64,000 nt of DNA from Xestospongia bergquistia (taxonomy: Eukaryota > Porifera > Demospongiae > Haplosclerida > Petrosiidae): positions 3,110,001 to 3,174,000 of the forward strand of contig OZ014413.1 of assembly GCA_963965975.1 (NCBI GenBank). Reading direction: 5' to 3'. A model generated the notes under the pieces. It was given only the letters and a program-made list of their open reading frames with translations. It was not told the DNA's origin and did not search any database. The first letter of the stretch is position 1; every line of letters begins with the position of its first letter. Of this stretch, positions 29,366 to 64,000 are shown piece after piece. The translations under genes and the position numbers were made by a program.

Positions 29366-30836
29366 TTAACTACATTTGGCCAGCCTGGAGCTGAAGTAGG
29401 ATAATCTGTGATAGAAAAGATCCATAATACAGGGGTTTTTTGTTGTTTTTTTTGTTTGTTTTTCATAGAAACACAATAGCCCAGTCAAAAGAGATGTTTT
29501 GTGAAAATCTGTATTGAAGTCACCAAGTAGGATAAGGTTAGAGAGGAGACTTGGGTTAAAAGAAGAGAGAAAATCCACTAAGAGATTGAGATCACCATCC
29601 AAGTTTGCGGGCAGATAAAATATTCCTAGAGTGAAGCTGAAGTGGTGGCAGGTGATTTGTAATGGAAGAAATTCAAGGTTGTTTGAAAGAAGAAGTAGAG
29701 GAGATACAGACAAATGTGATTTCACAAAAACAACAATGCCGCCACCATGGCGATTACAGTCTAGACGGAACTAAAGGAAATTGGGTAAAGATATTTCAAG
29801 GTAATAAAATAGAAATGAACAGAACACAGGAGCTTGAGGTCATCAAGTTTAGGGAGAAGGCCCCTGGCGTTAAAGTAAAAAACGTTTAGTGAGTTAGATG
29901 ATTGTTTGGGGGGGAGGGGAGATGTAAGTAGCGACAGCAACAGGTTGATTAAAGTTTGGGATTGGGTAAATGTTGGGTGGGGTAGAATGTTGTTTGGGTG
30001 AGTGATTGAGTGAAGATTGATTGTTGAAGAGTGGGTGTAGGGGAGTGGGCAGAGGTTTGGAGTATATAGTGGAGGCTGGAATTTGGTAAAGGAAGGATTC
30101 AACAGGGATGAGAGTGGAGTTGGGAGGAGTGGTGCCTTGTGAAGATTTGTTTTTTGGGGTAGGAAGGAGAGCCTTGGGTGTGTGAAGAGGACAATTGATG
30201 AGATTGGTAAGAAATTGAAGAAGAGGAAAAGACAAAGGATGGTAAGAGTGTTTGAAGGGTGGAAAATGTGGAGGAAACGGTAGAAGAGGACGATAAGGAG
30301 GAGGTTTCTTTATTGGTCGGTGACCATTGGCTAAAAAAGGAGCAGCAGAGGAAGATTGAGGGAGAGGATTGGAGAGAGGAGGAGGACAAGGTACAGTGAG
30401 AGTAGATGGTGAGGTTGTAGTTAATGGTAATGTAAGGGTAGAGGGAGTTGTAGAGGAGCTGGGCTCGGAAGTACGATTAGGTGTAGGAATGGAAATAGAA
30501 CTGGCAGCAGAGCAGGATAACATTTGTAGAGATGGAGTCGAGAAAATTTTGAACAGCTTTTATTTTAGAAATAATAGTAGACATTGGTTTACAGGTATTT
30601 TTAAGTTTTACAAGCCTATCTATTAGCTGAGTAATATCACTTGTTAGGACAGATACTGAGGAAAGTAGAGACTTAACACAGTAAGGACAGATGAAGGGAT
30701 AGTTAGCAGCAACAGTGGGAGAGACATTAACACATTCACTATGAGACCAGCTGGAACAAGACTCACATTCTATCATGTGGCCAGTGTCTTCTTGGGTCAA
30801 ACAAACATACATTACAACGTCTTCTCTGTCCACCAT
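29366..30836 (-). mobile_element. Non-LTR retrotransposon 5' half (CR1/L2-like), broken
   Basis: Minus-strand order: a PHD-like zinc module near the start (30836 on; 'HMIECESCSSWSHSECVNV' and 'FICPYCVKSL'), a coiled segment, a long Ser/Pro/Thr-rich region (30523-29894, in shifted frames), then an AP-type endonuclease ('FYFNARGLLPKLDDL', 'LILLGDFNTDFH'). PHD-type ORF1 proteins and this endonuclease are known from CR1/L2 elements. Frames shift between the segments, and no reverse transcriptase follows below 29366, so the 3' half is missing. It could not transpose. Confidence 0.75.
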
Positions 30837-31312
30837 TTTATTAATTTAATATTTTCTTCATATAATTATAATAAAATTTACCAAGTAGTTTTAATATATT
30901 AGTATCTACATTCATTAAAGAAGTGAAACACCAGCCATTTCAAGTGAAGTCATAAATCTACCCATATATGTACGCACTACATTGAAATGCAATGTTTGCT
31001 CTAAATGGAAAAAGAATATCATAATACAAAAAGTTATATGTAAGGATTGTTGGTTTAGACATTGTAAGATATATTGTAAACTATATAAGGTATATTATGT
31101 AATAATAGATACAACTCGATCACACAACCAGTGCATCTACTTGTGTATATATACAACTTGATTTTAGAGCAGATAGTACCACTGTTATAAACAAAGTTAT
31201 AATCATTGAAATTCCATTATAGAAATAGGAATAACACTTAAAAGATCTAATTGTACCACACAGTTCCATAATTATTGGTCTAACAGTAGAATTACTATTA
31301 ATGATTGCATAA

Positions 31313-32869
31313 CACCGTGGCGTTCAAAAGAGTTCGGCCACCCATACAGAAGTTACATTATTTGAGCTAATTGAATTAATCACAACTACACGTGTTCTGT
31401 TTCTGTGCTGTTACAGCTATTTTTGAAGAGAAAGCCATAGGGGTAGGAAAGGGGGGGGGGGCAGGGGGATGAAGCCCCCCCCCCCCCCCCCAACTTCAAA
31501 TAGTAGTTGGAGAAACTTTAGGGTAAGTAATATCCGTGTTTTAAGCTAGGGACGATGTTTATTGTCGTGTTTTTTGACAAAAACAAATAAAATAATATCT
31601 TTTATAAGTAAAGATGTCTAGTACTCTGTGTGCCCACCCCTAGCTTGATAACAGCTTCGATTCTTCATGGCATTTACTAGACCAGGTTTGTATTATCTCT
31701 GATGGTATATTCTCACAAAGATCATTTAGCATGTCCCATAATTGAGAGAGAGTTTTTGTTGGGAATTTTTCTAGTTTCCTCTCTAAATAGTCCCATACGT
31801 TCTCTACTGGGTTTAAGTCAGGAGATTGTGCTGACCATGTAGTACAATTAACTTCATTTTCATTCATCCAATCTGTAATTAGATGAGCCTTTTTGCAAGA
31901 TGCATTGTCATGCATGAAGATGTAGTCCAAACATCTTATTGACCAGGCTGATGGAATCATTGCATTTCCTAGTATTTCTAAATACAGAAATCTATCCACC
32001 TTGCCTTTGACTTGTACTAATATACCCTTTTCATTGCCAAAGATACATCCCCACACCATTACACTACCCCCACTGTGCTTTACTGTGCCCTGTATACAGT
32101 TCTCATTAAATTCTTCTGATAGTCTACGTTGTATGTACGTTCGACCATCACTATGGAAGAGATTAAACGTGACTCATCAGACCATACAACTTTAGTCCAC
32201 ATATCTTCTGTCCAGTCCCTGTGTTCCTTTGCCCATTGGAGACGTTGTTGTTTGTGTCTTGGCAGTAACAGTGGTTGCCTTCTCGATATTCTACTATTTA
32301 ATCCAGCATCTATCAGTCTTCTCTTCACTGTACATGAGGAAGCCATCACATTATCTTCCTCTTTCATATATTTTTCGGAAGAGGTGCTGTTAGTTTACAA
32401 TCTCTAATTGACTTTAATACGAGACTTCTATCTTCTCGTGTTGAAGATAATTTTGGGATGTCCAACTTGTGGTTCATCAGTTACTGACTTATTTTTCTTG
32501 TATTTTTGGATAAAATCATTTATTGTACTCTTTAGTATTTTTAATTGTTTCGCTAGAGCCCTAGATGTCAGTTTAAGTTGGTGCAAAGCTATAATTTGAC
32601 CTCTCTGGAACTGACTGGTGGGTTTTCCTCTGGGCATGTTGTGGTCAGCTTTTTTCTAATTGTTTCCAGGCACCTCTTTATAAGTCAAGGACTGTAAATA
32701 GGTTTATAACTGCTGCTCTATTTGCTCTTGTGTAAACAGCTTTCGATAGACGTAACTGAGCAGCTGTAAAATTCTGTTAAGTACTGTGCATTGTCTAAAA
32801 AAATAAGCTTAAGTACTATTTTTAATGAGAAACATGTGGGTGGCTGAAATCTTTTGAGCGCCACTGTAT
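31313..32869 (-). mobile_element. Tc1-like element with decayed DD34E transposase
   Basis: The ends are inverted repeats: GTGGCGTTCAAAAGA on the left and TCTTTTGAGCGCCAC on the right, with GGCCACCCA / GTGGGTGGC next inward. The transposase reads right to left: 'MPRGKPTSQFQRGQIIALHQ' and an HTH (32637-32428), then 'TKVVWSDES' (first Asp), 'YIFMHDNASCKKAH' (second Asp) and 'SPDLNPVENVWDYLE' (the Glu of the triad). The segments are in different frames (breaks near 32420 and 32070), so the enzyme is inactive. A G/C-tract hairpin (31441-31494) lies between the stop and the left end. Confidence 0.9.
31441..31494. repeat. G-tract/C-tract hairpin element (second copy)
   Basis: Same design and flanks as 3844-3925: GGTAGGAAAG, G run, AGGGGGATGAAG, C run, CAACTT. 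It is inserted in the 3' untranslated part of the Tc1 element, so it is younger than that insertion or was carried by it. Confidence 0.65.
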
Positions 32870-34959: not shown

Positions 34960-36065
34960 TGTGATTGTTGGATGTTCTTCTAGGAGCAATCGGAATAAAC
35001 GCAACACGTTGTATAGTGTACCAGTCATCATCATTAATCAAAGCAAAAGAACTTATGAGTTGAGTAAAGAGTGCTAAGAGTTGTGGATAGCAAGAATATG
35101 TAGAGCTGATGTGACACCAGATCATTACCACAACTGTCATGTCTGTTCTAAACATTTTATATCAGGTAACTTTATACCAGTTATATTATTGTTGTGATTT
35201 CAATAAACAGGTAAACCAAGTGCATGTTATGATAATCTTAACCCAGATTGGGCTTTAACATGCACTTCTTGGCTATACTGAGTCTACAGCTCATGGTACT
35301 GAGTCATCTACTGCAAAGTATGAAAGGACAAAGGTCAAAGAAGCTAATCGAAGGAGAGTAAATTCTATTGGTCTGAATGTAAGATTGAAGTACATATGTA
35401 GTAATGATCTGATTGATCTCTTACTTAGCTTTCACTAGAACATGATTGTTGTCTACACAAGTTCAAGCATTCAAGACATCTTCCAGTCAAACTTATTTAA
35501 CTTCTTTTGAGATATTGATATGAAACAGTTAAAAGTGGATAATGATCATCTGTGATCTAGCTGTTCACAGTTAAAAGCTGAAAATGCAGAGTTATATGAA
35601 AAAAAAGAAATTGCTTCAGGAGAAAGTTAAGTCTATGGCTTTTGACCAAGAAATATTCAGAAATGATTACAAGAAAGTTAGATATTATACTGGATTAACA
35701 AACTGGACTATCTTGTTAGCACTGTTTCAATATATTGAAGCTAGTATTATATCCCAAGGCCACTTAGCCATTTCACCTTTTCTACAGCTGATTCTCACTT
35801 TAATGAAACTCCGACTATCACTCTCAGGACAAGATCTAGCACATCAATTTAGAGTCCATTCCTCAACCATTTCTCACATCTTCTCTAATTTACTTCATGT
35901 ATTGTACAAAAGGCTCAAGTTTTGCGTGACCTGAAAGAGAAAATCTTAAACAAACTCTCCCAGTGGACTTCAGAAAACATTGTCCTACTTGTGCTGTCAT
36001 CATCAACTGTTTCGAGATATTTATTGATAGACACAGTAAAATATCTTATAATGAAACAAGAACTT
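34960..36065 (+). mobile_element. THAP + DDE_4 (PIF/Harbinger, ISL2EU-type) transposase relic
   Basis: A THAP-like C2CH finger is readable (34966-35165: 'VGCSSRSNRNKRNTLYSVP', one TAA, 'HNCHVCSKHFISG', then a GT donor). A linker exon follows ('KPSACYDNLNPDW'). Next is the open frame 35584-35934 with an HTH ('LILTLMKLRLSLSGQDLAHQ', 'FRVHSSTISHIFSNLL'), typical just before the DDE_4 core. The catalytic part then decays ('[20 protein letters not shown]', stop). It ends about 200 bases upstream of the Death/ROCO gene. Confidence 0.65.
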
Positions 36066-36260
36066 GATTGATTGTAAATTTTATTGGTTCACCAACATGG
36101 CTGGTTAGCAACAGTTGCTATGTTTATATTCAGGAAGTAGGAGGGGTTGCAACGGGTCATACAGTCTCATACTGCTTGTGAGTATCCAAGCCCGTTTTGA
36201 CCCGTGCTATAAGAAAACGTTCGCCTTGTTTTTGGTTGTGTTACTCCTATATACTAAAGT

Positions 36261-39200
36261 ATGATTGAACTCACTCAGTGGAGAGTAAGCGTTGGATTAT
36301 GGTGCTCTAGTGTGAAAATACTGGCAAAGAATAGAGGAAATGCTACGTATACATCTTCTGGATGGGTGGAATCAGTGTTGTCAAGTTATAATGATGGAGG
36401 TGTTTATCAGATATTCTTTATAATTGTGTTTGTCGCGCTTCTCCTTATTCTATCAGGAGATGTTGAACTCAATCCTGGACCTAAAACAGGTAAAATATAA
36501 TTGTTCCATCCAATTTAGAACTCGTATAATAATTTAATATTCATAAGTTCATAACTTTGCACACAATATCATAAGTTATTAGAAATATATTTAGCATTCA
36601 CATTTGTTAGGATGATTAAAAGTCTTGTTAACTGTCTATTATTATTTAATTTTTGAGACCAGTAAATGTTTAGAAACATGCTTTGACTGTGTTAATCTTT
36701 TCCTTGCGATTATTCTGACATTTAGAATAATAGGACAAATGAAGACAATTTGAGTAATCTACAGTTTTTAAGAAACTTTTTGTTTTAGTTTACTTCTTGA
36801 CTTGGGTGAATACTTATAAAATTGATAAAAGGTGCAAGTCTATTCTTTGAAACAAAACTAAAGTCTACTTTATCTTTTGTTTTCTTCTTGAATTTTAAGT
36901 TTATTTGTAAGAAGGAAGGTATAATTTCATGTAAAATGCTATCCTTAAACCAACAGTCAAAGAAACCTTCAGTGTCACATCAATTATACTTTTCTCTTAG
37001 AATGCTTGAAAGCATGTACTCTTGGCAGGGTTATTTCATGCTTAAATCAACTTTCTCTTTCAATTATATAAACAGAGAATAAATAGCCTCAGTTGATGGT
37101 GTATTTATGGTTATTCGATTTCACATAAAGAGGATGCTGATTGATTTACAAGTATACTATGTAATTGACTGATCTTCTAAATAATTACTATGATCTTAAA
37201 TATAGTAATGTGCTGGTACAATGGAATTCATGGCTAATATACCTGCACAGCTGTATCATCAGAAGCCTTATGAACAATACTATAGTCTATTTGCATTCAC
37301 CTTGCCAGTAAAAAATTAGCTTAACTTTCTAGTAACTCGACTAAATTCAAAATTCAAAGTCAAATAGTCTTCTTACAATCATCTGCTTCTTTGACGTCAT
37401 TTTTTAGTATGATACAACCCACAAGAACAAGATTTTTTGTACTTTCCATAAGCAAAGTATATGAGATGTCATTGGCCATGAGGAATGTGAAGTAATGAAT
37501 TTTGTTTAACCATAAAATGGGTGGTGCTTGAAGAGAGAAACCAATACGATAAGAAATACATTATAACTATGAAGTCATCTAGGTAAAAGTATTATACTAC
37601 TGAAGCCAAGAAATTTGTTCATACAAGAAAAGAAAATCAACCCTATACACACAGACACATGGGCTTTTATTTTCGTCTGATAACTCAAACAATAACACCA
37701 CAAGTATTTAATTTATGATATGTGGCATGTCGTATGTATGCTAATTACACTCACTACTAATTTCTGGCAGCAAGGTGAACGCGAATATACTGTAGTATTC
37801 ATAACAGGATGTGTTCCAGTGTTTGCTTGTCCATTTATCAGTCTTGTCCATCTGTCTGTTTAAAAGTAGCTGTTAACACAGTAGGCTTGATCATAATCCT
37901 GCAACTGACTACCAGTTATTGAATATACGGTAATCCGATATTGCTATTTCAATAACTGGTATCTAATCAGATTACACCATATTTAAGATTACAATCCCAT
38001 TGGAATTATGATCTTAGATATGTTGTGTTATTAATCTTATTTTTAGATATCTTGAAGGAAGCCCCCAATGAGTATGATTTACTTCATCTATTGGCAGATG
38101 TAGACTATCTTTGGTTTGAAATTGGTGTTTTTTTCGGAGTTGACTACTTTATTTTAGAAGATTTAAGGATAAGTATCAAAGATGATATTGTCAAACTTTC
38201 TGAAGTCATATATAGTTGTGTGAGCACTACTAATTTACTACCCTTCACTTGGGAGACTGTAATACCTGTCATTAAGCAAATACAGACATGTACATCTACC
38301 AGTGACAAAAGAAAAGTTGATCAGATACTTGAACATATTTTGAAAGGTAATAAAGAAATATTGTAAGGTAGCATATAAGAGTTTTAAATATATTGTTTGA
38401 TCTGCATGGTCATCAAGATATTTTTATTATGTAGAAAATGTTCCATACAATTCTATACTACGAACAAGTAAGCAACATTTTTAAAGAAAGACATATTACA
38501 GTGTCTACTTAAGGATTTACCACAATGTCAACTAGAAGTCAGGATAGTGAAGAAGAAGCAACCTTTGAAATGGAAGATGAAAAAGCATGTTTGCCTAAGA
38601 GGAAATGTACACAGATTGATTTTAACAAAAGTAAGCTACTTTTGATAAACTACTTTGTGACTTAAATATAATGAAATAAAAACACTTCAGATTAAAAGAT
38701 ACAAAAAATTTCTGATAGATAAGTATTAATAATTAACAGATAAGTATTTCTAAGTCAATCACTTTTTATTGAGATCATTTTAATTGATTTTTAAGAGTAG
38801 CAAAGATCATAATGATAGCTCAAGTAAGAATTACATGACTCAAAATATAATGTAGCCACTGAACATGCATGATAATCACAATGAAGTTTAATAAAACAAT
38901 AGACGACACATGTCTGCAAAAAGAGCTCATTTATTTAGATATTGAGGTTGTAGCTGCATGTGATGTTGTGATAAAAGTTATTTCTATTTCAGTGTTATTA
39001 TGATTTTACTATGTAAAACTTTTGGTATGAGAATTCCTGATTATTTTAAACCTAACTAGAAATTCACATTCATAGAACTAGTTAAAAGACAACCTGTATG
39101 TACAATTCCAACAGTCATTGTAAAAGGTCTAAGTTAATGTACATATGCATGTCTTTTCAATGTCAACTTTCCACTTTCCTTATTTATTTGTTAGTATGGC

Positions 39201-42200
39201 TAGAATTACCCTTTCCTTATATATATTGCAGTTATAATTATTGTTTTTTTTCTCAAATTCAATTCTTTGTCATAATAATGTTTTGCTTGTCTTGATTTTC
39301 TGAAACTCAAGCTCAAGTGAATGAATATTGATTTTGAAGATCTTTAAATGCAGTTTTAATTAAAGCTTAAAGTCTGAAGACAGCCTATCATATCTAGAAA
39401 TCAAATATTGATGAAATTTTTTATCTATTGAGTTCAAATTGTAGTGACAAGTATTATGTTGTTTTGTTTTGAAAACATTTGTGACATACGATAAATAGTA
39501 TACTGTATGCACTGGACATATGCTTTAGAGATTATGAAAATTCAAGGTTGGGGCAATTATAATTCCTCTGTTTTAGTACTAATGAGCATTTAGCACATGT
39601 GAATACATGTATTTTCATAATGCTATCTAATTCCAGCAGCTTTCAGTATCATTAAAAGTTGTACCTAAGTGCCTAATAATGGCAAAGGTTGCAATATTTG
39701 TGTTCATCTGTTAAAGCCTTTTAACATAAACAATGATTTAGGTAAAATATAATTTTTTGTAATAAAATAAAATAAAATTGATCTTCTTTTTTGTAAGTAG
39801 CTTTGAAATGTATCAACGATATCATTGATAAAGAACATTAGAATAAAGTAACACTTTAAATCTTGGATTGTGCATTCATAAACTATTTTTGGGTATGATC
39901 TATTTTGGAGGACCTAAAGTAAAAGGTTAGGGCAAAGGTTTATCTATAGGAACACAGTTGACGTTTAAGTTTCTCTCATATTTGTGTCTTATGTAGAGAA
40001 TAGAATATGTAATGATACAAATTTCATTATTCTGTACTCTAGGTATTTTAAGGAAATCTCCCAATACACCAGCTCTAATCCATTTGTTAGCTGATATTGA
40101 GTATATGTGGCATGAAATAGGTTTGGCTTTGGAAGTTTCTCTAAGTGACTTGCATGAATTAAAAACTAGTAATCAAAAGAATGCCGCAAAGCTCTCAAGA
40201 GTAATTCAATGTTGGATGACAAGTGCTAACAGAAGTTTTATAACGTGGGAAACAATGATTTTTGCTATGGAGGGACCAATTGTTTACAGGAAAAGCACAG
40301 CTGCAAAAATATATGCACACCTTGGTATAGAAGGTATGTGTATATGTACTTTACCCTTTCAACAGTCTGGATGTTTGTTGATTATATATGAGTATTTATT
40401 CTTGTTGAGTATAAAAAGTCTTTGTTGAAAGGTCCTAGGTAGAGAGGTAATATATAGCTGTGAAGGACATTTCAGACGTTGTGTTAGTTTAGACAACCAA
40501 TACTAAAAGTCAAGAAATAAAACCAAGCAATATATACAATAGAACAACCAATTAAAATACATCTAAGGAGTCGATAGTGACTATCAGCCAATGAGTTAAT
40601 AGGAATAGAGTCCTTGACAGGTCAATTGGTTTGTATATATTGCTTGAGATTTTTAGTATTGGTTGTCCAGACTAACATAAAGTCTTTGCTTCTATTTAAG
40701 ATATGTTCATGAATGGCCTATGTATGCCCATTGGGCAACCTATAGCCTAAAACATATACTTGTGACATTGTTGAGTAATCAGAATATAAGAGTGTTGGCT
40801 CATGCATTCTACAGTAAGCTCAGATTGGCTCTGCATATCTCTAATTTTTTCAGTATGCATGCATACCTCAAACTTCATGAAAGTGTTTACTTTTACTTCC
40901 CTGTGTGTGTCAGAATATATATCATGACCTGTTTCAAAACCTTCAACAATTTACAATCCATGTCATCAGTACACATATCTATCACTGGCAAGCTCCTGCA
41001 ACAGCTAACAGTTTTATAATTTTAAGTAAACTTAGCCATTAGGTCACTTACTATTTGTGGATGTTCAAGACAAGGATAGTCCTCCAGAATAAGCTTCACA
41101 GAAGGTTTGTCTTCCTTCACCCACTTTCTTCATATAGCTGACTATAAATAAATACATAAATGTATAGTATTGAGAATATTAGCGTACTAGAAGTTTCTGA
41201 CATAAGTGACTTTAGAGCTGACAAAGTCCATTTCTTGGACTGGTACAAAGACTTCAGTTTACTAGCTAGACAAGCACTTTAACACTTTCTATATAACGTG
41301 GAGTGAACAGTATGTTACATAGCACTTTAATGATTGATGACACAACAACGCAGTGTTGTAATAAGATTATCAGGTGCTGTCATAACACCAAGGTGCTACA
41401 GTGTACTGGTGGTAGTATAAGACCATAGAATTTGACACCCTTGTGTTCTGATATATATATATATATATAGCACCTCCAATTTTACAGTGGGACTATAAAC
41501 ATTTGGTAACCTTCTTAAAATGATGTATAGTCTTGGCGCCTTCATTTCATTGCTTAGCCACATGAATTGGCTGACTAACTCAGGTAAGCATGCTTCTTCA
41601 CCCCATTACAGAACCTTTTTAACTTGATTTAATCTAATAATAAATCAAATGCTAGTGAATGGTCTGTGCCTACCCATTTAATAGCTACTATAATTGTAAG
41701 TACTTAAACAGTATATTTTTAAAGTTTGAATGCTTATTAATTACTGATTAAAATAGTCTAATAGCCTTAGACAGTATATGGATTGAACTTAGCTTTTAAG
41801 ACCAAATCTCATTTTAAAGATAGATTTTGGGCCATTAGCTAGGACACCCAAGAGCCAGATTTCTCACTGCAAATAATATCACTATATAATATAGCTGTAA
41901 CTGGATAAAGGAGATAATATGATTTACTTATATATATATATATAAACCTACTTTCAGAAGGGAATACTTTTGCTTTACTTGATATGCACATATATGGTAT
42001 CAATGTGTGTGTGCATGTGTAGCTATTTACAGCAATATCAGTGAGGAGAATGTCTATGATGGTGTTGTCATTCAGTTGACTGGTTACCTAGGCGACTGTG
42101 AGCTATAAAAATAGCTTTAAAGCAAACAACCAATATTTATACTTACCTTTAAAGCATAAACAACTTTCAGTGCAGCTTCCTAACAAAATGTAACAAAATA

Positions 42201-45200
42201 AGCTAATGTAAGTATGGACGTCCCTCATTTTATAATAATAGCAAAGGCGTGATGTTTATGTATTGTATAGTTGTAGAAGATATTCAATTAAGACAAGCAG
42301 TCCTGTATTGTTGGATGAGTGCACTCAAGATATCCTATATGCAACAAAGTGTTGCCATAATTTTTAGTTATTAATTAGAAAGTATAATCGATTTGATATA
42401 AAAGATATCTTATTTTCTTAAGAGAGAGGAGCAATTTTTTTTCTAAACACATACCTCTTTGATTCTACTTACAATAGGCCTTGCAATGTTCTACTGACAT
42501 TTGTTTACTTTCATGACCTGTTGTATTCCTCATTATGAGAGGCTACATTCAAGCTATGTAAAATTACCACATATACCCCTTGAAATAGACTTGTAGAAGC
42601 TTATACCCCTACCATCTGTCTATCAGATTAAAAGTAATAATTAATGATTGAATGGCTGCTAGGGATTCCGTATAAAACATTCCATTGCACATTTGTCGTG
42701 AAATATTAATTTTGTAGTTTTTATAAGATTACCAATAAAATGTTTAAAGAAAGACTTGATACTTGATTCTTTTAAATGATCTTTTTAATTATATCATTAA
42801 TAGGTGATAATGAAGCCAAAGCTGAACCTCAGACAAGTAACTATTATAATCATGCATTTGTTTAATATGTAAGGTCTGTACAAACTCACATTAAAAGAAG
42901 AGAGATATAATAGACTGTACTAATGGTATGAAAGACTTTATGGTCTGCTATTTGTAAAGATGGACACTGTAAAATTAAGAACTAAATAATATAGCTCATT
43001 AAATTTGTCTATGTCAATCCTTCATATGGCTGTTTGTAGAATACATTTATGTTTACTTTTCTAGCAACTGATATCATAAAGAAGACACCCAGTGATGAAG
43101 ACATTTTGTTTTTATTATATGATATGGCTTTTGAGTGGCATGAAATTGGTCAGTCTCTTCAAATTTCCCATGATTTTTTGAATAGACTTTCTTTGAAAAA
43201 ATTTGATAATGTTATCAACCTTGCTCAAGTAATTAGGAAGTGGAAAACTACTACAAATTCACATTGTATAACATGGGAAACAGTAATATTGGCTATTGAA
43301 AATTTGCACAATTTTACTCAGTATGGTCGATACAAGGTACTTGCAGAGTCCAGTAGTTATAAGAGAAAAGTAATGGAAATACAGAAATACCTTACTAAAG
43401 GTATGTATCTATGCACTAAATCAATTTGAAATTTGGGGTACTGTTTTATCAAACAATCCAGCAAATTAAACCTACCCAAAATAATTTTGATTTTTTAAAA
43501 AAATTGTATATTGATTATATCCATCTTGTTAAGCTTATGCATACAGATAGCTTTAAATGTTTTGACTATTGTAATTATATATACATTCTTAGCATTAAGT
43601 TATACAGCTATATCAAATCTATAAATATTGAATATTTATCAATGTATGCATGCAGTAATCACTGTAAAGAGCTTTACTATAATAAATTTAATTAAAGCCC
43701 TTTGAATTAATCTATGAAAATGTACTCTTACTATCTACCTTTATTATTATAGAACAAAAATGTTGTTATTTGTATATTGTTATAGGTATCTGCAGCAAGA
43801 ATTCCTACAGTATGGCAGATATGCTTATTAAAGAAAGTGTGTCTCTTAATAAAATGCTGAGTAAGCAGCCAACTCTTGATGAGTTATGTGAACAATTTAG
43901 TGTCATTTCAATTAATTGGTACTTGTTTGGTGTGCACTTTCAATTAGAAAACAATCAGCTAGAAGCTATCAGACAACTAGAAAAAAAAGTTGTATATAAA
44001 ATGTTGAAAATGTTTAAAGTTTTGCTACATGTCAAGCCAAGTACTACAAGGAAGCAAATTATTGATGCACTCTATTTCATGGATTTTTTTGCTATTGCTG
44101 AAGATTACATTAACTCGTTGATAAAAGCTCATGATAGAACTGGTAAGAAAACAAATATTGTAGTACTATTGGTTTCATCTAATTGTTGTGTAGATTTAGC
44201 TTGTCTAGCACAAAATGTGTATTTGTGCTTTAATAGTTTATTTCTAGATTGTTTTTTTATTAAAATGTATTTTTAAATAACTATTAGTGCTATAGCTGAA
44301 CATTTTACATGTAAACATTCTTTTTTTAGAATCAAAAAATGACAGTTTACTTTTGTATGACCCAATTCCTAGCACAAAGCTGCCACTTGAAGATAAATTA
44401 AACAATAAGCCACCTCTTTCTGAGTTATGTGAACATGTTATACTTGGTACTATGTGGTACATGTTTGGTGTACTTCTAAAGCTAGACACTGCCAAATTAG
44501 ATGATATAGAAGATTTATATGAAGATGTTCACTTACAAGGTATAAAAATGTTTCAAGTGTGGTTGGAGACTAACCCAAATGCAACAAGGATGCAAGTTAT
44601 TTTCACATTGCAAAGGAATTCCATATCTCTCATTAGGATGTCCTATGAGTACATTGAAATAATAGATTGTAAGTTTTTATACATAATTATAAGCATCTCA
44701 TGAAGTATCTGTATACCCCAGCACTAATGAGCAGTAACATATTTCTATTGCTTCGTGTGAGAACCCTTTCAGGCATTTCAAAGATCATTTCAAAAAACTG
44801 TGTAACATCAAATGAAATTACAGAACACACATTGGCCTCCAATTAACTTTAAAAATGAATTGAATATATTTTCTTTAGGGACTGAATCTTGGCCATAACT
44901 AATTATGTCACATTTAGCATTTACATAGTGAAAATTATTTACAATATGCTAGCTATATTGCAATTCTTAAGACCTTGTTATGACCTCATTGTGTCACAAG
45001 TACATTACTACTAAAGCTGCCTTGCCACAATTCTTTACTATTATAATCTTGTTATATAATTAGGTATTCCTGTAAAAGATTTATCAAGTCAAAATGTTGA
45101 GTGGATATCACCTATTATAGAGATACAGGATCATTTTAAAGTTCATTGTATTCCATCACTTACAAACTTGCTAGAAGAGAGACCACCTCTAAATGAGTTA

Positions 45201-45580
45201 CAAGAGCATGTAAAAATTGGATCGAAATGGTTTCTATTTGGTGTTCTTTTAAATATAAATCCTACTGATCTAAGTACTATTGAACAGCTAAATGGAGATT
45301 CTGTTTTAAAAGCTTTAAAAATGTTTCAAATATGGTTGGACACTGATCCAAATGCAACTAGGATGAAAGTTATTGATACATTAGAAAAAGAAGTTATCGG
45401 AGAAATGACTCTAGCTACATTTTACATGACAACACTTAAAAAAAAAGGCAACTTAACTCGTAAGTAATAGTTTCTGTTAATTTAAGGAAGAAGAGATAAT
45501 TAAAAACTATATATATATATATAATTATATATATATATATAATTTCTAGTAATTTATAGCAGAGATTATTTAAAACTATA

Positions 45581-45628
<48 letters not shown>

Positions 45629-48600
45629 ATATATGTGTGTGTGTGTGTGTATACATACATATATGTAGCTCCTGTAAGATTGTTTGAAATAGACAGTATA
45701 TATACTAGCAACTTAGTATATGTGATGTGGATAATGCTGAATATATTATCATGCCTATTTTCAGTCTAGTCAAAAAAAGGCATTGCTGTGTGGTTTCACT
45801 TGCTGCTAAGTAGCAATTAATAAAATTAATAAAATAACATGAAAGATCACTGCAACATAACTATATAGACTTAGAGTATAATCACTAGTGACTCAAGCAC
45901 ATAAAGTAAACTTCAGCCAAGCCTTTCTATACTTTATATATGTTGTATATATTATTTGTTTCTTTGACTTCATGAATGTTGTTACTTCATGTCAAAAGTA
46001 CAAGTATATTGTGAGGATTTATGTACAATCCATGTGTAAACTAGCAGCAGACAAATGTAACTGCTTACCAACCTAACCTTCTTGATTGTATTTCCATGTT
46101 GCAAAACCATGTAACTAGTCCTAATCTAGCAATATAAAGACTACTGTATTATTATTCATTTTTATAGAGAATAACACCAAAGAATTGTTGATTCCATCCA
46201 TGAATTTCTCAGCATCTACTCTCTCATTTGATGAATTTTTACAAGACAGACCAACTCATGATGAGTTATGCAACCACATTGTATTTTGTGACTGGAGACT
46301 GTTAGCTATATGTTTACCTACCATAACAGATATTGATGTTGATGTAATCTTTGAGGAAACTGGTGGTATATCCTCACTGGCGTTACAGCAAACATTTCAA
46401 TTGTGGCTAAAGAAATGCCCCAACGCTTCAAGACAACAAGTTATTCAAATATTAAAGAGTAGAGTAATTGGACAAAACGCCATTGCTGCAAAGTATGAGA
46501 GTGCGTTAAAAGAACTCTATGGTGAGTTCCTTAAATTTCAATATGTAGTATATTGCTTATATGCATTGGCCAAAGTATTCATTTTCAGTTTTGACTTTTG
46601 GAAAGACAATTCAAAATTGCCTTGTCATTCAATGTCATGGATAGTTCTTATTAATTTGAATATTGAATTTGTATTTTTAGGCTGATTGACTTAGCAACTT
46701 GTATATAAGTCTCCTAACTATTACATATATATAATGAATACATACATACATATATCAGGGTTTCATTTAGAAAAATGGACAAGGGGAGCAAAATAATAGT
46801 TTGAGAAAATTTAGGGAGACAAAGGAACTGTGCGGACAGCATGTCCTCTAGGGGGGTCTGGAGGCATCCCCCCAGAAAATTTCTGAATTTTAGACCCTCT
46901 GACATTTCTTCTGGCACATTTTCAGACCATTTATGGTTTTCAAATGATATGACGAGATAACCATATTTCTGGTGCTCATAAGACACTTAACACAACCGCT
47001 TAAGTGACACCAGCCTTTCACATGTTATGAAATTAGCCATTGAATCTCCTGACACTTTGTTAGATAGTGATCTTGAAGACATTGTAGATACATGGAACAG
47101 AAAGATTAGAAGAATAACTCTTTAGGTTACAAACTGTACATTCTCCTTGTGTTTAGCCTAAGGTTATCTTATGCTGTATATTCCTTGTGTTGAGTTTCAG
47201 TTCTGTATTCATTACATCCAATTATCCCTTGAAAAAAATGGCTAACCTAATTTCCAAGGGGGGGGGGCAAGACTCTGGCAAGGGGGGCAAATGCCCCCCT
47301 GCCCCCCATTAAATGAAACCCTGTATATACATACACAAACACACACATACACAGACACAGACACACACGTGCGTGCATACATACATACATTACTTTACAA
47401 GTACAATTTCAAAATTGAAAAGAGATGTGTGAATGGCAATGCTAGCAAAGAATTGAAAAGAGGTTGAGATGAATGCATAAATCTATGCATAATCATTACA
47501 TTTGTAGTGTTATGTGTTTTTATGTAGTGGTGAGAGAATTTAGCATATTCATTATTCAATTGCATAGTAGTAACATCACTTTCTTAACTTTAGAAGACTC
47601 AGCTACTTATGTAGTGAGTTTCTTTAGTCATTTCTATTATGTTTCTTTTCACTTTTACTATCATCCGTAGATTTTTTATTTTTTAATTTACTTTTTATCA
47701 TTATATGAAGGTTTACTAGTGGTGATCAATATTGTTAGGTACTTGCTAAAATAAGCCTATAAGTCAACTTTCACATCACTTTAGAGCATCATTATGTAGT
47801 GAATTGATTTCTGTACATTATCCATGCACTTCTGTGCTTAATGATAGTAGCTTTGTGTTAAGCACATGCTATGTTAATGATTTTTATTATCTTCAGGAAA
47901 CTACATACATTTATTAGAAAAAGCTATGGAAGAAGGTCATGTTGTTGTCAAGTGGAGCAAATTTTCTATCTGTGGTCCTCCAAAAACTGGCAAATCATCT
48001 TTTTTAAAACTACTTTTTGGTGATCCTCCTGGACCATGTGATTTTCACGACAGCACTCCAATAGTTGCTGTGCATCAAGCAAGGAAATTACAAATAGTGA
48101 CTGCTGTCATGAAGGATGAGAGAAGTGAGTTTCTTTGGGAGATTCTTAATCATGAAACTTTAAAAACTATGATTGCTGGAGGAATAAATGATGGAATCAG
48201 ATGTCCTCAATTCGCACCCATTCAAGCTGATCAACCAATGAAAGATCCAACCAATAGTAACTTTCCAAATGAACCTGTAGAAGAAAAGTTCATTGATCTA
48301 TTAGTAGATGACTTAGCAGGGATAGAAGACATGGACAGCGAGCCTAAGTTGGACACACTAGGAGAAACATATCAACAACAATTTTTACCAGTTTATCGTG
48401 ACATAAGTCAGCGCCTATCTCATACAAAAAAATCAGACAAACTTTACGAATCACATTGGATTTATGCTATTGATACTGGAGGTCAGGCTGCCTTTTTAGA
48501 CATTGCTCCAGCCTTGCTGGGTTATCACTCAGTCAATATTTTTACACATAAACTGACTGAGCAGCTTGATGATAAAGCCAAGTTCTTCTACAGTGTAAAA

Positions 48601-51220
48601 GGAAAAATTGTCGGCGAGCCAATTGTAAGAGATATTACAAATATACAATTGCTTGAGGCATCAATTCGCTTGTTATCAGCTGTACATCCACCAAAATTAC
48701 CTAATATAATTGAACCTGTCAAAGAGCCATGCCACATTGTAGTAGGAACTTTTTTTGATGAAATTAGTAAGTCTAAGGAATCACTTCATGACAAAAATGA
48801 ACGCATTCGGTCAACTTTGGAGCAATATCAGATACTCAAGCATAGGGGTAAAGTAATTTTTCCTATAAACACTACTGGCAGAGGTGACTGTGAAAGAAGT
48901 ATGGCTAATGAGATCCGCCGTAAGATATGCCAGTATTATATTAAGGCTGAAATTCCAGCTAGATGGTTCATCTTTCAACTAGAGCTGGATCAATTTCAAA
49001 AGAGATCTGAAAATAAGATAGTTAGTCTATCCATGTGTGTAGAAATTGGTAAAGCTCTTACGATGGACAAAGCAGAAGTTAATGCAGCTCTAATGTATTT
49101 TCATGATCTCACTATCTTTCTTTATTTTGATATTCTGCCAAGTGTGGTATTTTTACACCCACAACCACTCTTTGATCTGCTTTCTGATATCATTAGCATT
49201 TCTTTTGCTGATGATGTTGACAGTTTATTTGATAAAGGTATCAGTATTCTTGATGATGATCATGAACAACTTAAAAACAATGGAATATTTAAGGAAGGGT
49301 TGTTGACATGTCAAGAGTCACATTTTTCATATGGCTTCTCCTCTGAGTTCTCAGCAAAGGATTTTCTTAAATTAATGACGAATCTATTCATTTTTGCTTC
49401 TTTACCTAAGCAAAAAGAACAAGATGAAGCGAAGTACTTTGTCCCATCCATTTTACCTTATTTTCCACTCAATGAATCAACTCTGAGCCGTTTTAAAACA
49501 TATGTTGACCCTTTGATTATAACATGGGATATGAGGCCCCTTCCACAAGGTCTGTTCCCTGCATTGATTGTGAATTTGCTACATTATGAAGGTCCAATAA
49601 ACTTTCATCTTCCAGCATCTGGATCTAAATTGCTTCACTCTCGTAATGCAATTAGCTTACGTACTAACAATGGTTGTGTTCATTTGATTGATTCTAACTG
49701 TTGGATGGAGATATATTTCTCAGGTCCTATTAACAAATGTTTTACTGTTCATAATGCTATAACTGAAGGAATTTTTGAGGTCATGAGCAAGTTCCGTTAT
49801 TTAGACAGTAAAAATAGTCCAAAGAAAGTTTTTTGCTGTTCAGAATGCCCAGATAAACAATTCTGCTATTTAGATGACGACGAAACACTTTTTTGTTATA
49901 AATGCCTTAAAACCTCATCTATTAATGAACCCCGACGAAAACCATGGTTTTCAGAGGAAAGTAAGTTTTGTTTCTTATAAGTATCAGATAATGAATATAA
50001 TTCATATTTCATTCTATTAATCATAATGATAACTTACGCTTGATAAGTAATTGATATAATGTTAAAGGTTCCTAAACCTATAGTTCACTTGTATCTCTAC
50101 AAGTAAGACATATGCAAAGTTTTAGCGAGCTTATTTAGATGAAATAAAAAACATTATATTAGTGATTTGTGATATTTGTTCAAAGTTTAATAATTATATA
50201 TAATACATACAACAAGAAAAAGAGTACATGTAATATCTTTGAATTTTATGAGGTATGAAGTTTCTTTACCATGTTATAGATATTATGAACTAAAAATTTT
50301 TATTACTTTACTTTTATCAACACATTAAAAAAGCTCAGATAATTGTCAACTGATAATAATGAATATTTAGAATATATTTGTTTAAAGCTACTCAGACCAT
50401 TTGATTAATTTAGTCAATTTCAAAATTTATGACATAGTATATTGCAAGATTTAATTATAATCAAGCTATGTCACTGCTGCTATAACTTGACAAATTCTGT
50501 TACTATAATCTGTTCAGACTGGCTAAGACCCACTCTAAATATCTTTGTATTTCCTTCAGATATAAGAGCACTTCCTAACACTGGAGCATGTGTACAGTTT
50601 ACACAATTACAATTACAAAATGCATGAAGTATTCCATGTAATGGAGATCAAGATGTAAATTATGTACAATGATGCTATTAAAGCAATTTATACAGAAATG
50701 GCTTCAAATGTTATAACAGATCTGATAAGTTCATAAATTTATCTAGAGTGTTCTCATATTTAGTGAAATAATTATAAATAATCATATGATTATAACCTTT
50801 TAAAATTATTGCTAACATCACCATGTATTTTTTGACATGGACTAGTGTGAGTTTTGTAGTAATATAGCTTTTGCATGGTTTTGACAATGTTCTCTCTAAT
50901 TTGCAGAGACGTGTGATGTATTAAAGAAAATCCCCAATGATTATGAACTTCTTGATCTCTTAGCTGACATTAGTGCTGATTGGCAAGATATTGGTTTGGC
51001 ACTCAAAATTGACGACAATGATTTAAAAGGGATATCAAACCATGCAGAAGATAGTGACAACTATAAACTATTCAAAGTAATTAGAAGGTGGATGGAGTCA
51101 AAGCAATCCTCTGTCACTTGGGAAACAGTGATTTTTGCTATTCAAGGACCTGTTTTGAATAAAAAGCAAAAAGCTGATGACATACGTAAATACCTTGGCC
51201 TCCCTATGAAGTCCTTATGA
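36261..51220 (+). CDS. 2A-leader, multi-Death-domain ROCO (Roc-COR) protein
   Basis: Twelve exons join in one frame (1709 aa): 36261-36489, 38047-38346, 38514-38630, 40043-40333, 42804-42836, 43065-43400, 43786-44142, 44330-44668, 45064-45459, 46168-46521, 47897-49960, 50907-51220 (TGA). Exon 1: hydrophobic stretch then GDVELNPGP. Exons 2, 4, 6 and 12 each hold a Death domain of type I ('LLADISADWQDIGLAL', 'TWETVIFAI'); exons 7-10 each hold type II ('PPLSELCEHV', 'WYMFGVLLKL', 'FQVWLETNPNATRMQV'). Exon 11: Roc GTPase (P-loop 'GPPKTGKSSF', G3 'DTGGQ', a G4-like 'VVGTFFDE' lacking the usual Lys), COR with 'IPARWFIFQLELDQF' and 'FYFDILPSVVFLHPQPLFDL'-like core, then a CxxC...CxxC cluster. Death domains assemble signalling complexes and Roc-COR is a GTP-dependent dimerising switch; a cell-death or immune receptor role is inferred. 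The short exon 38514-38630 has a weak acceptor and is the least certain. Confidence 0.82.
36456..36482 (+). other. 2A-like ribosome-skipping motif
   Basis: Codons 66-74 of the gene read G-D-V-E-L-N-P-G-P, a full match to the D(V/I)ExNPGP consensus. The motif is preceded by a hydrophobic stretch (residues 51-64) that resembles a signal sequence and suits the helix 2A needs. Skipping would occur between Gly73 and Pro74, releasing a 73-aa leader and a protein starting with Pro. Intron 1 begins only 8 bases after the motif. 2A-like motifs in cellular genes are known from non-LTR retrotransposons and echinoderm NLRs, where partial skipping gives dual targeting. Confidence 0.85.
40478..40682. mobile_element. 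MITE in intron 4 of the Death/ROCO gene
   Basis: The left end TGTTAGTTTAGACAACCAAT...ACTAAAA is inverted at the right end (TTTTTAGTATTGGTTGTCC.GACTAACA), and the next inward block CAAGCAATATATACAA is also inverted. About 205 bp, non-coding. Confidence 0.8.
41049..42185 (-). pseudogene. Minus-strand exon-like relics inside intron 4
   Basis: A minus-strand frame bounded by an acceptor-like ATAGTCAG (about 41140) and a donor GTAAGTG (about 41050) reads 'RKWVKEDKPSVKLILEDYPC' and on to 'LEHPQI'. A small frame near 42181-42150, acceptor TTAG and donor GTAAGTA, reads 'EAALKVVYALK'. Both have good splice sites but no further exons were found. They may be remnants of a gene or element antisense to the ROCO gene. 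Family not recognised. Confidence 0.25.
45505..45660. repeat. TA / TG microsatellites
   Basis: Three TA blocks, one followed by a TG run and TACA repeats, in the intron between exons 45064-45459 and 46168-46521. The long Tyr/Ile ORF on the minus strand is a repeat artefact. Confidence 0.9.
46754..47327. mobile_element. Non-autonomous DNA transposon with CAGGGTTTCATTTA ends
   Basis: The left end TCAGGGTTTCATTTAGAAAA (46756) and the right end TTAAATGAAACCCTGTA (about 47309-47325) are inverted repeats. The interior carries G runs and matching C runs (GGGGGGCAAATGCCCCCC near the right end, GGGGGGTC...CCCCCC near 46853-46876). About 570 bp, no intact frame, in intron 10 of the ROCO gene. CAGGG ends suggest a hAT-like origin, which is inference. 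Confidence 0.75.
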
Positions 51221-51369: not shown

Positions 51370-52360
51370 TATCACAGTTGGCGACGAGGTGAAACATCAC
51401 TCAAAATGGCTATTCACGGTTCTGTATTCAATGCAAGCACAGAGGTTTGGTCACACTTTATGTCGAACGGCTCAACCAGTATTTCATCGCAAATGACGTG
51501 GTAGATGCTAACAAGAAGCGTGCTATATTTCTCTCTGCTTGTGGTCCGAAAACGTACAAACTTGTACGTAGCTTAGTAGACGATGATTCTGATTCCAAAT
51601 CGTACGACGAACTGGTGAAACTAGTCAAAGAGTTTCATTATCCAAAACCGTCTGTTATCGTTCAGCGGTATAAGTTCAATTCTCGAGTCAGGGCAATGGA
51701 CGAATCGATCGTGACATACATTGCAGCGTTACGTCAATCAGCCGAGCACTGTGACTATAAAGACACTCTTCAGGAGATGTTAAGAGATAGGTTAGTCTGT
51801 AGTGTAAATCATGCAGGCATTCAAAAGTGATTACTCGCAGAAAAGGATCTCACATTCATAGAAGCTCTAGACATAGCTCAAGCCCTATAGAAGCTGCTGA
51901 AAAGGGGACCAAAGATGTTGCTATACAAGATACTACTCAAAATCGAGGTCAATGACTTAACTACACTTCTCAGGAACGTAACCAACGATTGAAATTTACT
52001 CCACCTCATACTAGTAAACCATGTCACAGATGTGGAGGTAAACAGTCACACACAATCTGTTACTTTAAAGTCTTCGACTGTCATAATTGTAAAAGATGGG
52101 GACATGTTGCTAGGATGTGTCGAGTGAAGAGCAAACAAGACACCAAACACAAGAACTCTCAGCAAAATCACTTCGTATCAAGTGTTGCAGAGGAAAAAGT
52201 TACTCAAGAGTCTCAGAGGACGAGTCATATGCTATGTTTTACACCAAGAGTTAGCTCATCAAACCCACTAATTATACATGTGAAACTGAACAATGTTTTA
52301 GTACCAATGGAATTGGACACAGGTGCCTATACAGAGTACTATACTAATTCTATATACTAA
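51370..52360 (+). mobile_element. Gypsy-type LTR retrotransposon fragment (gag, nucleocapsid, start of protease)
   Basis: A primer-binding-site-like TTGGCGACGAGGTG (51378) follows what may be the end of an LTR. Gag begins near ATG 51404, is frameshifted near 51440, then reads open to 51830 ('RLNQYFIANDVVDANKKRAI'). A second frame (51989-52360) has two zinc-knuckle-like units ('CHRCGGKQSHTICYFK', 'CHNCKRWGHVARMC') and the protease active-site triplet in 'MELDTGAYTEY'. It stops there; no reverse transcriptase or integrase follows. The fragment begins about 150 bases after the ROCO stop codon. It is inactive. Confidence 0.8.
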
Positions 52361-60742: not shown

Positions 60743-63700
60743 CATGTGTTATGTGTTTTTATGTAGTAGTGAGAGAATTTAGCATATTCATTATTCAATT
60801 GCATAGTAGTAACATCACTTTCTTAACTTTAGAAGACTCAGCTACTTATGTAGTGAGTTTCTTTAGTCATTTCTATTATGTTTCTTTTCACTTTTACTAT
60901 CATCCGTAGATTTTTTATTTTTTAATTTACTTTTTATCATTATATGAAGGTTTACTAGTGTTGATTAATATTATTAGGTACTTGCTAAAATAAGCCTATA
61001 AGTCAACTTTCACATCACTTTAGAGCATCATTATGTAGTGAATTGATTTCTGTACATTATCCATGCACTCTGTGCTTAATGATAGTAGCTTTGTGTTAAG
61101 CACATGCTATGTTAATGTTTTTTATTATCTTCAGGAAACTACATACATTTATTGGAAAAAGCCATGGAAGAAGGTCATGTTGTTGTCAAGTGGAGCAAAT
61201 TCTCTATCTGTGGTCCTCCAAAAACTGGCAAATCATCTTTTCTTAAACTACTTTTTGGTGACCCTCCTGGACCATCTGATTTTCACGACAGCACTCCAAT
61301 AGTTGCTGTGCATCAAGCTAGGAAATTACAAATAGTGACTGACTGCTGTCATGAAGGATGAGAGAAGTGAGTTTCTTTGGGAGATACTTAATCATGAAAC
61401 TTTAAAAACTATGATTGCTGGAGGAATAAATGATGGAATCAGATGTCCTCAATTCGCACCCATTCAAGCTGATCAACCAATGGAAGATCCATTCAATAGT
61501 AACTTTCCAAATGAACCTGTAGAAGAAAAGTTCATTGATCTATTAGTAGATGACTTAGCAGGAATAGAAGACATGGACAGCGAGCCTAAGTTGGACACAC
61601 TAGGAGAAACATATCAACAACAATTTTTACCAGTTTATCGTGACATAAGTCAAGCGCCTATCTCATACAAAAAAAATCAGACAAACTTTACGAATCACAT
61701 TGGATTTATGCTATTGATACTGGAGGTCAGGCTGCCTTTTTAGACATTGCTCCAGCCTTGCTGGGTTATCACTCAGTCAATATTTTTACACATAAACTGA
61801 CTGAGCAGTTTGATGATAAAGCCAAGTTCTTCTACAGTGTAAAAGGAAAAATTGTCGGCGAGCCAATTGTAAGAGATATTACAAATATACAATTGCTTGA
61901 GGCATCAATTCGCTTGTTATCAGCTGTACATCCACCAAAATTACCTAATATAATTGAACCTGTCAAAGAGCCATGCCACATTGTAGTAGGAACTTTTTTT
62001 GATGAAATTAGTAAGTCTAAGGAATCACTACATGACAAAAATGAACGCATTCAGTCAACTTTGGAGCAATATCAGATACTCAAGCATAGGGGTAAAGTAA
62101 TTTTTCCTATAAACACTACTGGCAGAGGTGACTGTGAAAGAAGTATGGCTAATGAGATCCGCCGTAAGATATGCCAGTATTATATTAAGGCTGAAATTCC
62201 AGCTAGATGGTTCATCTTTCAACTAGAGCTGGATCAATTTCAAAAGAGATCTGAAAATAAGATAGTTAGTCTATCCATGTGTGTAGAAATTGGTAAAGCT
62301 CTTACGATGGACAAAGCAGAAGTTAATGCAGCTCTAATGTATTTTCATGATCTCACTATCTTTTTTTATTTTGATATTCTGCCAAGTGTGGTATTTTTAC
62401 ACGCACAACCACTCTTTGATCTGCTTTCTGATATCATTAGCATTTCTTTTGCTGATGATGTTGACAGTTTATTTGATAAAGGTATCAGTATTCTTGATGA
62501 TGATCATGAAGAACTTAAAAACAATGGAATATTTAAGGAAGGGTTGTTGACATGTTAAGAGTTACATTTTTCATATGGCTTCTCTTCTGAGTTCTAAGCA
62601 AAGAATTTTCTTAAATTAATGACAAATCTATTCATTTTTGCTTCTCTACCTAAGCAAAAAGAAAATGATGAAGTGAAGTACTTTGTCCCATCCATTTTAC
62701 CTTATTTTCCACTCAATGAATCAACTCTAAGCCGTTTTAAAAAATATGTTGACCCTTTGATTATAACATGGGATATGAGGCCCAAGGTCTGTTCCCTGCA
62801 TTGATTGTGAATTTGCTACATTATGAAGGTCCAATAAAATTTTATCTTCCAGCATCTGGATCTAAATTGCTTCACTCTCGTAATGCAATTAGCTTACATA
62901 CTAACAATGGTTGTGTTCATTTGATTGATTCTAACTGTTGGATGGATATTTATTTCTCAGGTCCTATTAACAAATGTTTTACTGTTCATAATGCTATAAC
63001 TGAAAGAATTTTTGAGGTCATGAGCAAGTTCCGTTATTTAGACAGTAAAAATAGTCCAAAGAAAGCTTTTTACTGTTCAGAATGCCGAGATAAACAATTC
63101 TGCTATATACATGAAGATGAAACACTTTTTTGTGATAATTGCCTTGAAAACTCATCTATTAATGAACCACGACGAAAACCATGGTTTTCAGATGAAAGTA
63201 AGTTTCTGTTTCTTATAAGTATCAGAAAATAAATATAATTTATATTACATTCTATTAATCATAATTATAACTTACGCTTGATAAGTATTTCATATAATGT
63301 TTAAGGTTCCTAACACTGGAGCATATGTACAGTTTACACAATTACAATTACAAAATGCATGAAGTATTGCATGTAATGGAGATCAATATGTAAATTATGT
63401 ACAATGATGCTATTAAGCAATTTATACAGAAATGGCTTCAAATGTTATAACAGATCTGATAAGTTCATAAATTTATCTAGAGTGTTCTCATATTTAGTGA
63501 AATAATTATAAATAATCATATGATTATAACCTTTTAAAATTATTGCTAACATCACCATGTATTTTTTGACATTGACTAGTGTGAGTTTTGTAGTAATATA
63601 GCTTTTGCATGGTTTTGACAACGTTCTCTCTAATTTGCAGAGACGTGTGATGTATTAAAGAAAATCCCCAATGATTATGAACTTCTTAATCTCTTAGCTG

Positions 63701-63942
63701 ACATTAGTGCTGATTGGCAAGATATTGGTTTGGCACTCAAAATTGATGACAATGATTTAAAAGGGATATCAAACCATGCAGAAGATAGTGACAACTATAA
63801 ACTATTCAAAGTAATTAGAAAGTGGATGGAAAGAAAACAATCCTCTGTCACTTGGGAAACAGTGATTTTTGCTATCAAAGGACCTGTTTTGAATAACAAG
63901 CAAAAAGCTGATGACATACGTAAATACTTGGCCTCCCTATAA
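60743..63942 (+). pseudogene. Segmental duplicate of the Roc-COR and last Death exons, broken
   Basis: A copy of 47508-51220 including introns, so not retrocopied. The Roc-COR exon (about 61136-63197) has a 4-base insertion near 61340, two single-base insertions between 61650 and 61675 (which together restore the frame), CAA to TAA at 62556, another TAA near 62596, and a 7-base deletion near 62785. The final Death exon (63641-63942) is nearly intact but a one-base loss shortens the C terminus ('KYLASL'). About 500 bases of the intervening intron are missing. No exons for the leader or for the seven upstream Death domains accompany it. Confidence 0.9.
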
Positions 63943-64000
63943 AGTCCTTATGAATATGAGCTTACACATGATACTATATATGTTATTATATAATTATACA

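Follow-up and report, generated by a model that had tools for sequence, protein, structure and literature searches.

A candidate 2A recoding leader on a Death/Roc-COR gene and on other Death-domain receptor genes of a sponge

The window gene and its surroundings

The window, a stretch of 64,000 nucleotides from the sponge Xestospongia bergquistia, carries on its plus strand (36261-51220) a gene whose 11 exons have GT-AG ends and, when spliced in silico, encode 1,670 amino acids with no stop codon. In order, these are i) exon 1, the 2A leader exon, at 36261-36489 (76 codons plus 1 nucleotide); ii) three type-I Death-like exons at 38047-38346, 40043-40333, and 43065-43400, recognised by their place in the exon chain and by a Death-like profile, with a short linker exon of 11 amino acids at 42804-42836 between the second and third; iii) four type-II Death-like exons at 43786-44142, 44330-44668, 45064-45459, and 46168-46521, the first three found by both the Pfam Death scan and a type-II profile, the fourth by the profile with no Pfam Death match of its own; iv) a Roc-COR exon at 47897-49960 with 687 complete codons, a P-loop (GPPKTGKSS), and a G3 motif (DTGGQ); and v) a last exon at 50907-51220, encoding a type-I Death-like domain (Pfam Death scan and profile) and the stop codon. 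Every intron of the Death/Roc-COR chain is in phase 1, and an optional linker exon at 38514-38630 (39 amino acids, phase 1-1) can be included with the frame still intact. At the level of the sequence the exon chain is confirmed; an earlier sequence-only reading, which had joined twelve exons without a frame break, was right about the frame, whereas its count holds only if the optional linker is included and is otherwise 11.

An in-frame TAA (36255-36257) lies one codon before the leader methionine, so the coding sequence begins with exon 1 and the leader is N-terminal. In the Death exon at 38047 the open frame lacks any Met codon, so a leader exon is needed for translation. The leader is 73 residues long, ends in LLILSG-DVELNPG|P, and joins the Death-like exons in phase 1. 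It has a hydrophobic segment at 36396-36452 (residues 46-64, Kyte-Doolittle mean of 2.65 over 19 residues) and, at 36459-36482, the 2A core DVELNPG|P with LLILSG before it (genome core match G000:C3:3146459), and a GT donor follows 7 nt past the core. The GDVELNPGP motif that had been read on the first exon is thus in frame with the open chain; it has the StopGo/2A form (D/G/C/N)(V/I)ExNPGP, and LLILSG, judged by sequence, is a permissive upstream context of the LLLLSG class. Read from exon 1, the predicted upstream product is Met1-Gly73 and the predicted downstream product starts at Pro74.

The exon at 47897-49960 is confirmed to encode a Roc GTPase followed by a COR fold, as the sequence-only reading had it: COR-A is matched in 3 of 6 Roc-COR paralogues (best 3.9e-11), and the predicted fold, modelled with 49 of the 120 listed homologues, has LRRK and Roco proteins as its top structural matches (a single-sequence model reached a pLDDT of 33). 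A profile search of the PDB with the Roc-COR alignments gave no clear Roc-COR match by sequence. The tandem is that of Roco proteins (LRRK1/2, bacterial Roco), followed here by a Death-like domain; DAPK1 likewise is a Roc-COR protein with a C-terminal Death domain. The window gene differs from these in having eight Death-like domains, a G4-like stretch (GTFFDE) that is degenerate by eye, and, in the exons scanned, no kinase, LRR, or ankyrin repeats, and hence nothing of the kinase and ankyrin repeats that precede Roc-COR-Death in DAPK1. Nor is there a NACHT domain in the window chain; none of 95 genomic NACHT matches falls inside the window.

The eight Death-like assignments are weak but consistent. 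No single exon reaches the Pfam Death gathering score (best 21.2 bits against 22.6), so the eight Death domains first read here do not pass that cut-off, although four exons give sub-threshold matches (E = 0.0013 for the last exon; 0.019, 0.0008, and 0.00032 for three type-II exons) and FADD is the best, if weak, PDB match of both Death profiles (type I, E = 0.11; type II, E = 0.0056). Type-I exons 1-3 and type-II exon 4 have no Pfam Death match at E up to 1.

An HTH_Tnp_4 transposase remnant (35575-35931, plus strand, E = 8e-16) ends 330 nt before exon 1, a DDE_3 transposase ORF lies at 31643-32173 (minus strand, E = 1e-9), and a degraded non-LTR retrotransposon lies at 29366-31100 (minus strand), of a type that, elsewhere in the genome, has a 2A ahead of a PHD-type ORF; in this copy the 2A part is missing. 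Directly past the last exon, Gag-like ORFs with a zinc knuckle and a protease-like stretch (51393-52360, plus strand) look by eye like a retroelement remnant; Pfam assigned them to no retroelement family. The Roc-COR exon and the last Death exon recur in tandem at 60747-64000 (plus strand), about 97% identical; this copy has in-frame stops in Roc-COR and is thus a broken duplicate. Further upstream, a single frame at 16541-18205 (minus strand) encodes a 555-residue multi-pass membrane protein, POT/PTR-like by eye and with no Pfam match at E up to 0.01. Scans of the window for tRNAs and Rfam families gave zero matches.

The leader family and the genes behind it

The leader is present on the Roc-COR gene and is not unique to it, being found at about 150 places in the genome. 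A search of the animal's own genome (146.5 Mb, 21 contigs) with the 77-residue window leader as query returned 148 matches; all but three are on contigs C1, C3, C4, C8, C10, C11, and C14, the three being on C2 and C7. As a guard against circularity, a second query ended before the 2A; it gave 134 matches, and an exact core, [DG](V/I)ExNPGP, ends 120 of the 123 that are open and near full length (the three open leaders lacking it are at C14:894043, C10:4732630, and C4:3292019), compared with 3 of the 11 that are partial or stop-bearing. Merging all rows of both searches (148/148 and 134/134) yields 152 leader places, 138 with the core and 14 without. Genome-wide the core pattern occurs 163 times and the reversed pattern not once, which is more than chance; 138 of the 163 cores are at leader places and 25 elsewhere. 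Among nine of these 25 that we inspected, L016, L022, and L082 have a non-LTR context (a 2A core, then a PHD-type ORF, with an APE-like start in L022); L010, L017, and L018 have common flanks; L021 resembles a leader with a shifted frame; and L024 and L083 were placed in neither class.

In public records, a leader profile matched 753 short proteins (E up to 0.1), and the core is kept in 115 of 120 leader homologues among the matches listed, which include the window's own leader (P0216) and a close relative of it (P0205). These records carry no species names and some may come from the same species, so that spread of the leader across species is possible. Searching records under full-length size limits gave 0 matches, and none of 43 pattern matches in IMG/VR was a leader relative by tblastn. 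The leader tree is mostly unresolved, the alignment having too few columns.

For 10 loci chosen from different clusters (L069-L078) we extracted the downstream DNA. The next coding exon is Death-like in all 10, only partially so in L077, and no reverse-transcriptase ORF was seen by eye after the leader in any of them. Because L069, L072, and L073 themselves went into one of the two Death profiles, their independent support comes from Pfam Death, with E values of 0.0014, 0.0069, and 0.00017. In 9 of 9 loci tested (L077 being left aside) the Death-like exon is preceded, within 60 nt, by a phase-1 acceptor; the nearest AG is the one in phase 1 in 8 of these, and in L071 it is the AG before that, where by chance about one AG in three would be in phase. 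Further downstream are NACHT domains (L070, L073, and L074 by Pfam; L078 by the match C11:426652), ankyrin repeats (L069), a guanylate-binding GTPase (L075), and, in the window locus, Roc-COR.

The association extends genome-wide. A leader lies within 6 kb upstream and on the same strand in 48 of 95 NACHT matches (all 95 rows used; at least 95, since 103 of 156 candidates were scored), whereas shifting positions contig by contig produced on average 0.5 and at most 13 such pairs in 1,000 trials (the length of contig C15, which has zero leader matches, was assumed). A same-strand leader lies within 6 kb downstream in 18 of the 95, as in tandem clusters, and an opposite-strand leader is near just 1. 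Leaders also lie within 6 kb upstream of 36 of 137 ankyrin-type matches (137/137 rows used) and of 5 of 16 guanylate-binding protein (GBP) matches (16 of 27 rows, excluding 11 second-piece, weak, or broken ones); for GBP the shift control is weak, 1 of 1,000 shifts having reached 5. For Roc-COR, 65 of 68 rows were used (three being second pieces of the same exon; at least 65, of 573 candidates): 9 of the 65 have a leader within 12 kb upstream and 56 have none, which makes the leader a feature of only part of the family. Seen from the leaders, 92 of the 152 places have a first partner within 12 kb (NACHT 48, ankyrin-type 31, Roc-COR 8, GBP 5), and 60 have no NACHT, ankyrin-type, Roc-COR, or GBP match within that distance. 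Since the leader is a module common to NLRs and to ankyrin, GBP, and other Death proteins, a point that the sequence-only reading had missed, the Roc-COR gene is a single instance of an arrangement found across the genome.

Some clusters have no leader. Large Roc-COR exon clusters without one nearby occur on G000:C11, C12, C2, and C1; with 573 candidates, 65 of them scored, the Roco family is thus much larger than its 2A-led subset. NACHT exons are densely clustered at G000:C2:8.8-9.15 Mb, on both strands and with zero leader matches nearby, and NACHT genes accordingly split into leader and non-leader groups. On C14, one gene behind a leader joins an ankyrin-type N-terminus and Roc-COR in a single 927-residue frame, a case of domain mixing.

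Anatomy of the leader and constraint upon it

Two ways of choosing leaders were used. A set of 55 distinct leaders was drawn with a pattern in which the core and some of the first eight residues are fixed, and Met1, Ile2, Arg8, and the core are therefore invariant in it by choice; a coordinate-only set comprises 57 open leaders (55 distinct) from the 60 of 148 genome matches that fall in extracted loci, some of which had themselves been picked by core pattern. In all 55 pattern-chosen leaders (S/C/A)G stands at p10-p11, closing the hydrophobic stretch directly before the core; a phase-1 GT follows 4, 7, or 10 nt past the core; a purine is at -3; and an in-frame stop lies within 40 residues upstream, with a further Met in between in 3. 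They measure 65-78 residues to the proline, and their maximum 19-residue hydropathy, the sole signal-sequence measure used, is 1.94-2.93. In the coordinate-only set the start Met, Arg8, Trp14, and the core are each found in 57 of 57.

Replacement changes in the core are rare (pN 0.04 and pS 0.29 among the 57 coordinate-only leaders; pN/pS 0.13 in both sets), while pS outside the core is 0.39-0.48. The middle of the leader is far looser, with pN/pS of 0.81 in the 55-leader set and 0.85 in the coordinate-only set, against 0.31 for the first 14 columns and 0.37 for columns 9-14. The hydrophobic segment gives 0.48 and 0.35 in the two sets, respectively; the N-terminal motif MIDxxQWRxSIGLW is therefore about as constrained as the hydrophobic segment, and greater constraint at the N-terminus is not firm.

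A recoding signal leader and its alternatives

From the observed anatomy, conservation, phase, and gene association of the leader, we consider it probable that the window gene bears a recoding signal leader on a Death/Roc-COR signalling protein, and that this arrangement is shared across Death-domain receptors. A ribosome at the end of LLILSGDVELNPG would release the 73-residue hydrophobic leader and restart at Pro74, giving a leader-free cytosolic protein with eight Death-like domains and Roc-COR that could oligomerise through its Death domains. The hydrophobic segment would be a candidate signal or signal-anchor, and chains in which skipping failed, or was suppressed at the ER, would enter the secretory route or become membrane-bound. 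Motif class and conservation suggest skipping, hydropathy and the sea-urchin precedent suggest ER targeting, and the domains suggest an immune role. As the same exon, joined in phase 1, appears to head many NLR-, ankyrin-, GBP-, and Death-type genes, such a split may be a general trait of the animal's Death-domain receptor repertoire. The self-dividing or dual-targeted receptor proposed in the sequence-only reading is thus still the best-supported mechanism, given the conserved leader and its LLLLSG class, and its interpretation as a whole is partly supported.

The closest precedent is the sea urchin, where 2A signal leaders on NLRs are already known. The SpNLR2A6 leader recoded at about 80% in vitro, and abolishing recoding led to ER entry and more secretion (PMC4981915, Roulston et al. 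2016). As described there, SpNLR2A shares with the present leaders an N-terminal 2A, a leucine-rich segment, membership of a multi-gene family of receptors with Death/NACHT-type domains, and a D(V/I)ExNPGP core; in contrast, the present leaders are 65-78 rather than 26 residues long, are encoded by a separate phase-1 exon, carry the MIDxxQWRxSIGLW motif, and, as judged from sequence, also head Roc-COR, ankyrin, GBP, and Death genes besides NLRs (in the window the partner is Roc-COR). That the hydrophobic segment begins only about 45 residues into the leader, where whole sea-urchin leaders are 26 residues, counts against our proposal. Because ER translocation can inhibit the 2A reaction in artificial polyproteins (PMC2978324), the ratio of cytosolic to ER product could be set by ER engagement.

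Among viral StopGo/2A sequences, LLILSG followed by DVELNPGP resembles the LLLLSG class, whose (A/S/C)G-D pattern is among the known StopGo contexts; the LLLLSG-like class is related to motifs 2 and 6, and motif 6 has been measured to be active (Li et al. 2026, PMC12846837). Unlike these viral cases, the window leader is N-terminal on a cellular gene, with no viral context here. Among sponge proteins, the NLRD family (DEATH-NACHT-LRR, for example in Dysidea avara, PMC12909245) recalls the Death-NACHT genes downstream of many leaders, though the window gene itself has no NACHT; the terms "NPGP" and "signal peptide" are absent from the main text of that paper.

A more elaborate version is possible, and we advance it tentatively: a single ancestral recoding exon would have been shuffled in phase 1 before several classes of Death-domain receptor, making stop-go the default start of much of an inflammasome-like repertoire, so that each gene would yield a MIDxxQWRxSIGLW membrane micropeptide with a function of its own and a cytosolic Pro-start receptor, and ER engagement of the leader would set how much receptor is cytosolic and how much membrane-bound or secreted. 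The constraint on MIDxxQWRxSIGLW goes beyond what simple dual targeting would call for and leaves room for a functional micropeptide.

Taken alone, the idea that the leader itself is one of two end products, with the 2A freeing a 73-residue membrane micropeptide (MIDxxQWRxSIGLW ... LLLLILSGDVELNPG) and a cytosolic receptor in fixed ratio, is unlikely. It would account for the N-terminal constraint, for the invariance of M1, I2, Q6, W7, R8, G12, and W14 in 21 chosen leaders, and for a core kept in nearly all open matches; since the hydrophobic segment is about as constrained, however, the N-terminal contrast is not decisive, and the motif could instead serve targeting or translation. Less likely still is a translational brake, in which the 2A terminates a share of ribosomes so that Death proteins are kept scarce and location is secondary. 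Termination is indeed one of the two outcomes of 2A described in PMC4981915, and Death proteins are plausible subjects of tight dosage, but the brake leaves the kept hydrophobic segment and N-terminal motif unexplained, even if the 2A reaction also requires the leucine-rich part.

We regard it as highly improbable that exon 1 is a retrotransposon's 2A piece, dead or accidentally domesticated, lying outside the gene. 2A-bearing non-LTR retrotransposons, which Odon et al. in 2013 reportedly described in other genomes, share a leucine-rich 2A core with the window leader, and this reading is favoured by the presence in the same genome of such elements with their PHD-type ORF (L016, L022, L082) and of the degraded one at about 29.4-31 kb of the window; this last copy of the PHD piece, however, has no 2A. 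In such elements the 2A is followed by a PHD-type ORF, where the window leader has a phase-1 donor and Death-like exons rather than PHD, APE, or RT coding sequence; their flanks (LLLLLLLLCGDVESNPGP-PNNTVKCVC) are unlike the leader; and most genomic cores sit at leader matches, with a Death-like exon next in every locus extracted and host receptor domains often on the same strand. A retrotransposon origin of the window exon was rejected on these grounds, and the claim that it belongs to a host gene stands, although the 2A motif itself may derive from a retroelement or virus in the deep past. Least credible of all is an annotation artefact or decaying genes, with the exons unlinked remnants and the leaders persisting through recent duplication: the broken 97% copy of the last two exons and the 14 coreless leader places would fit, but the main copy is open across 1,670 residues, the leaders differ synonymously outside the core while its replacement sites barely change, and a close relative of the window leader (P0205) is in public records.

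We wish to place these observations against what is known of cellular 2A use, which has been called rare (PMC12846837) and of which the sea-urchin NLRs are the worked example. What appears new is a distinct leader, encoded by a separate phase-1 exon, that is common to NLR, ankyrin, GBP, Death, and Roc-COR genes. In a literature search by titles and abstract openings we recognised no report of sponge 2A leaders, though the eukaryotic 2A survey of Rao et al. 2025 may cover part of this ground; one Amphimedon match was rejected as a 2A-leader report, being a protein name only. If the leaders skip, a further animal would use recoding in considerably more than a hundred genes, spanning several classes of receptor; splitting during translation may then be a general way of placing immune-like receptors in the cell; translational control of receptor location would become directly testable; and one would have to ask whether animal Death-domain receptors had 2A leaders from the start or acquired them repeatedly.

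Two of the 55 leaders have GVELNPGP in place of DVELNPGP; leader variants of this form, L080 (G000:C4:754043) and L081 (G000:C4:785469), would offer natural tests of whether skipping is lower or altered.
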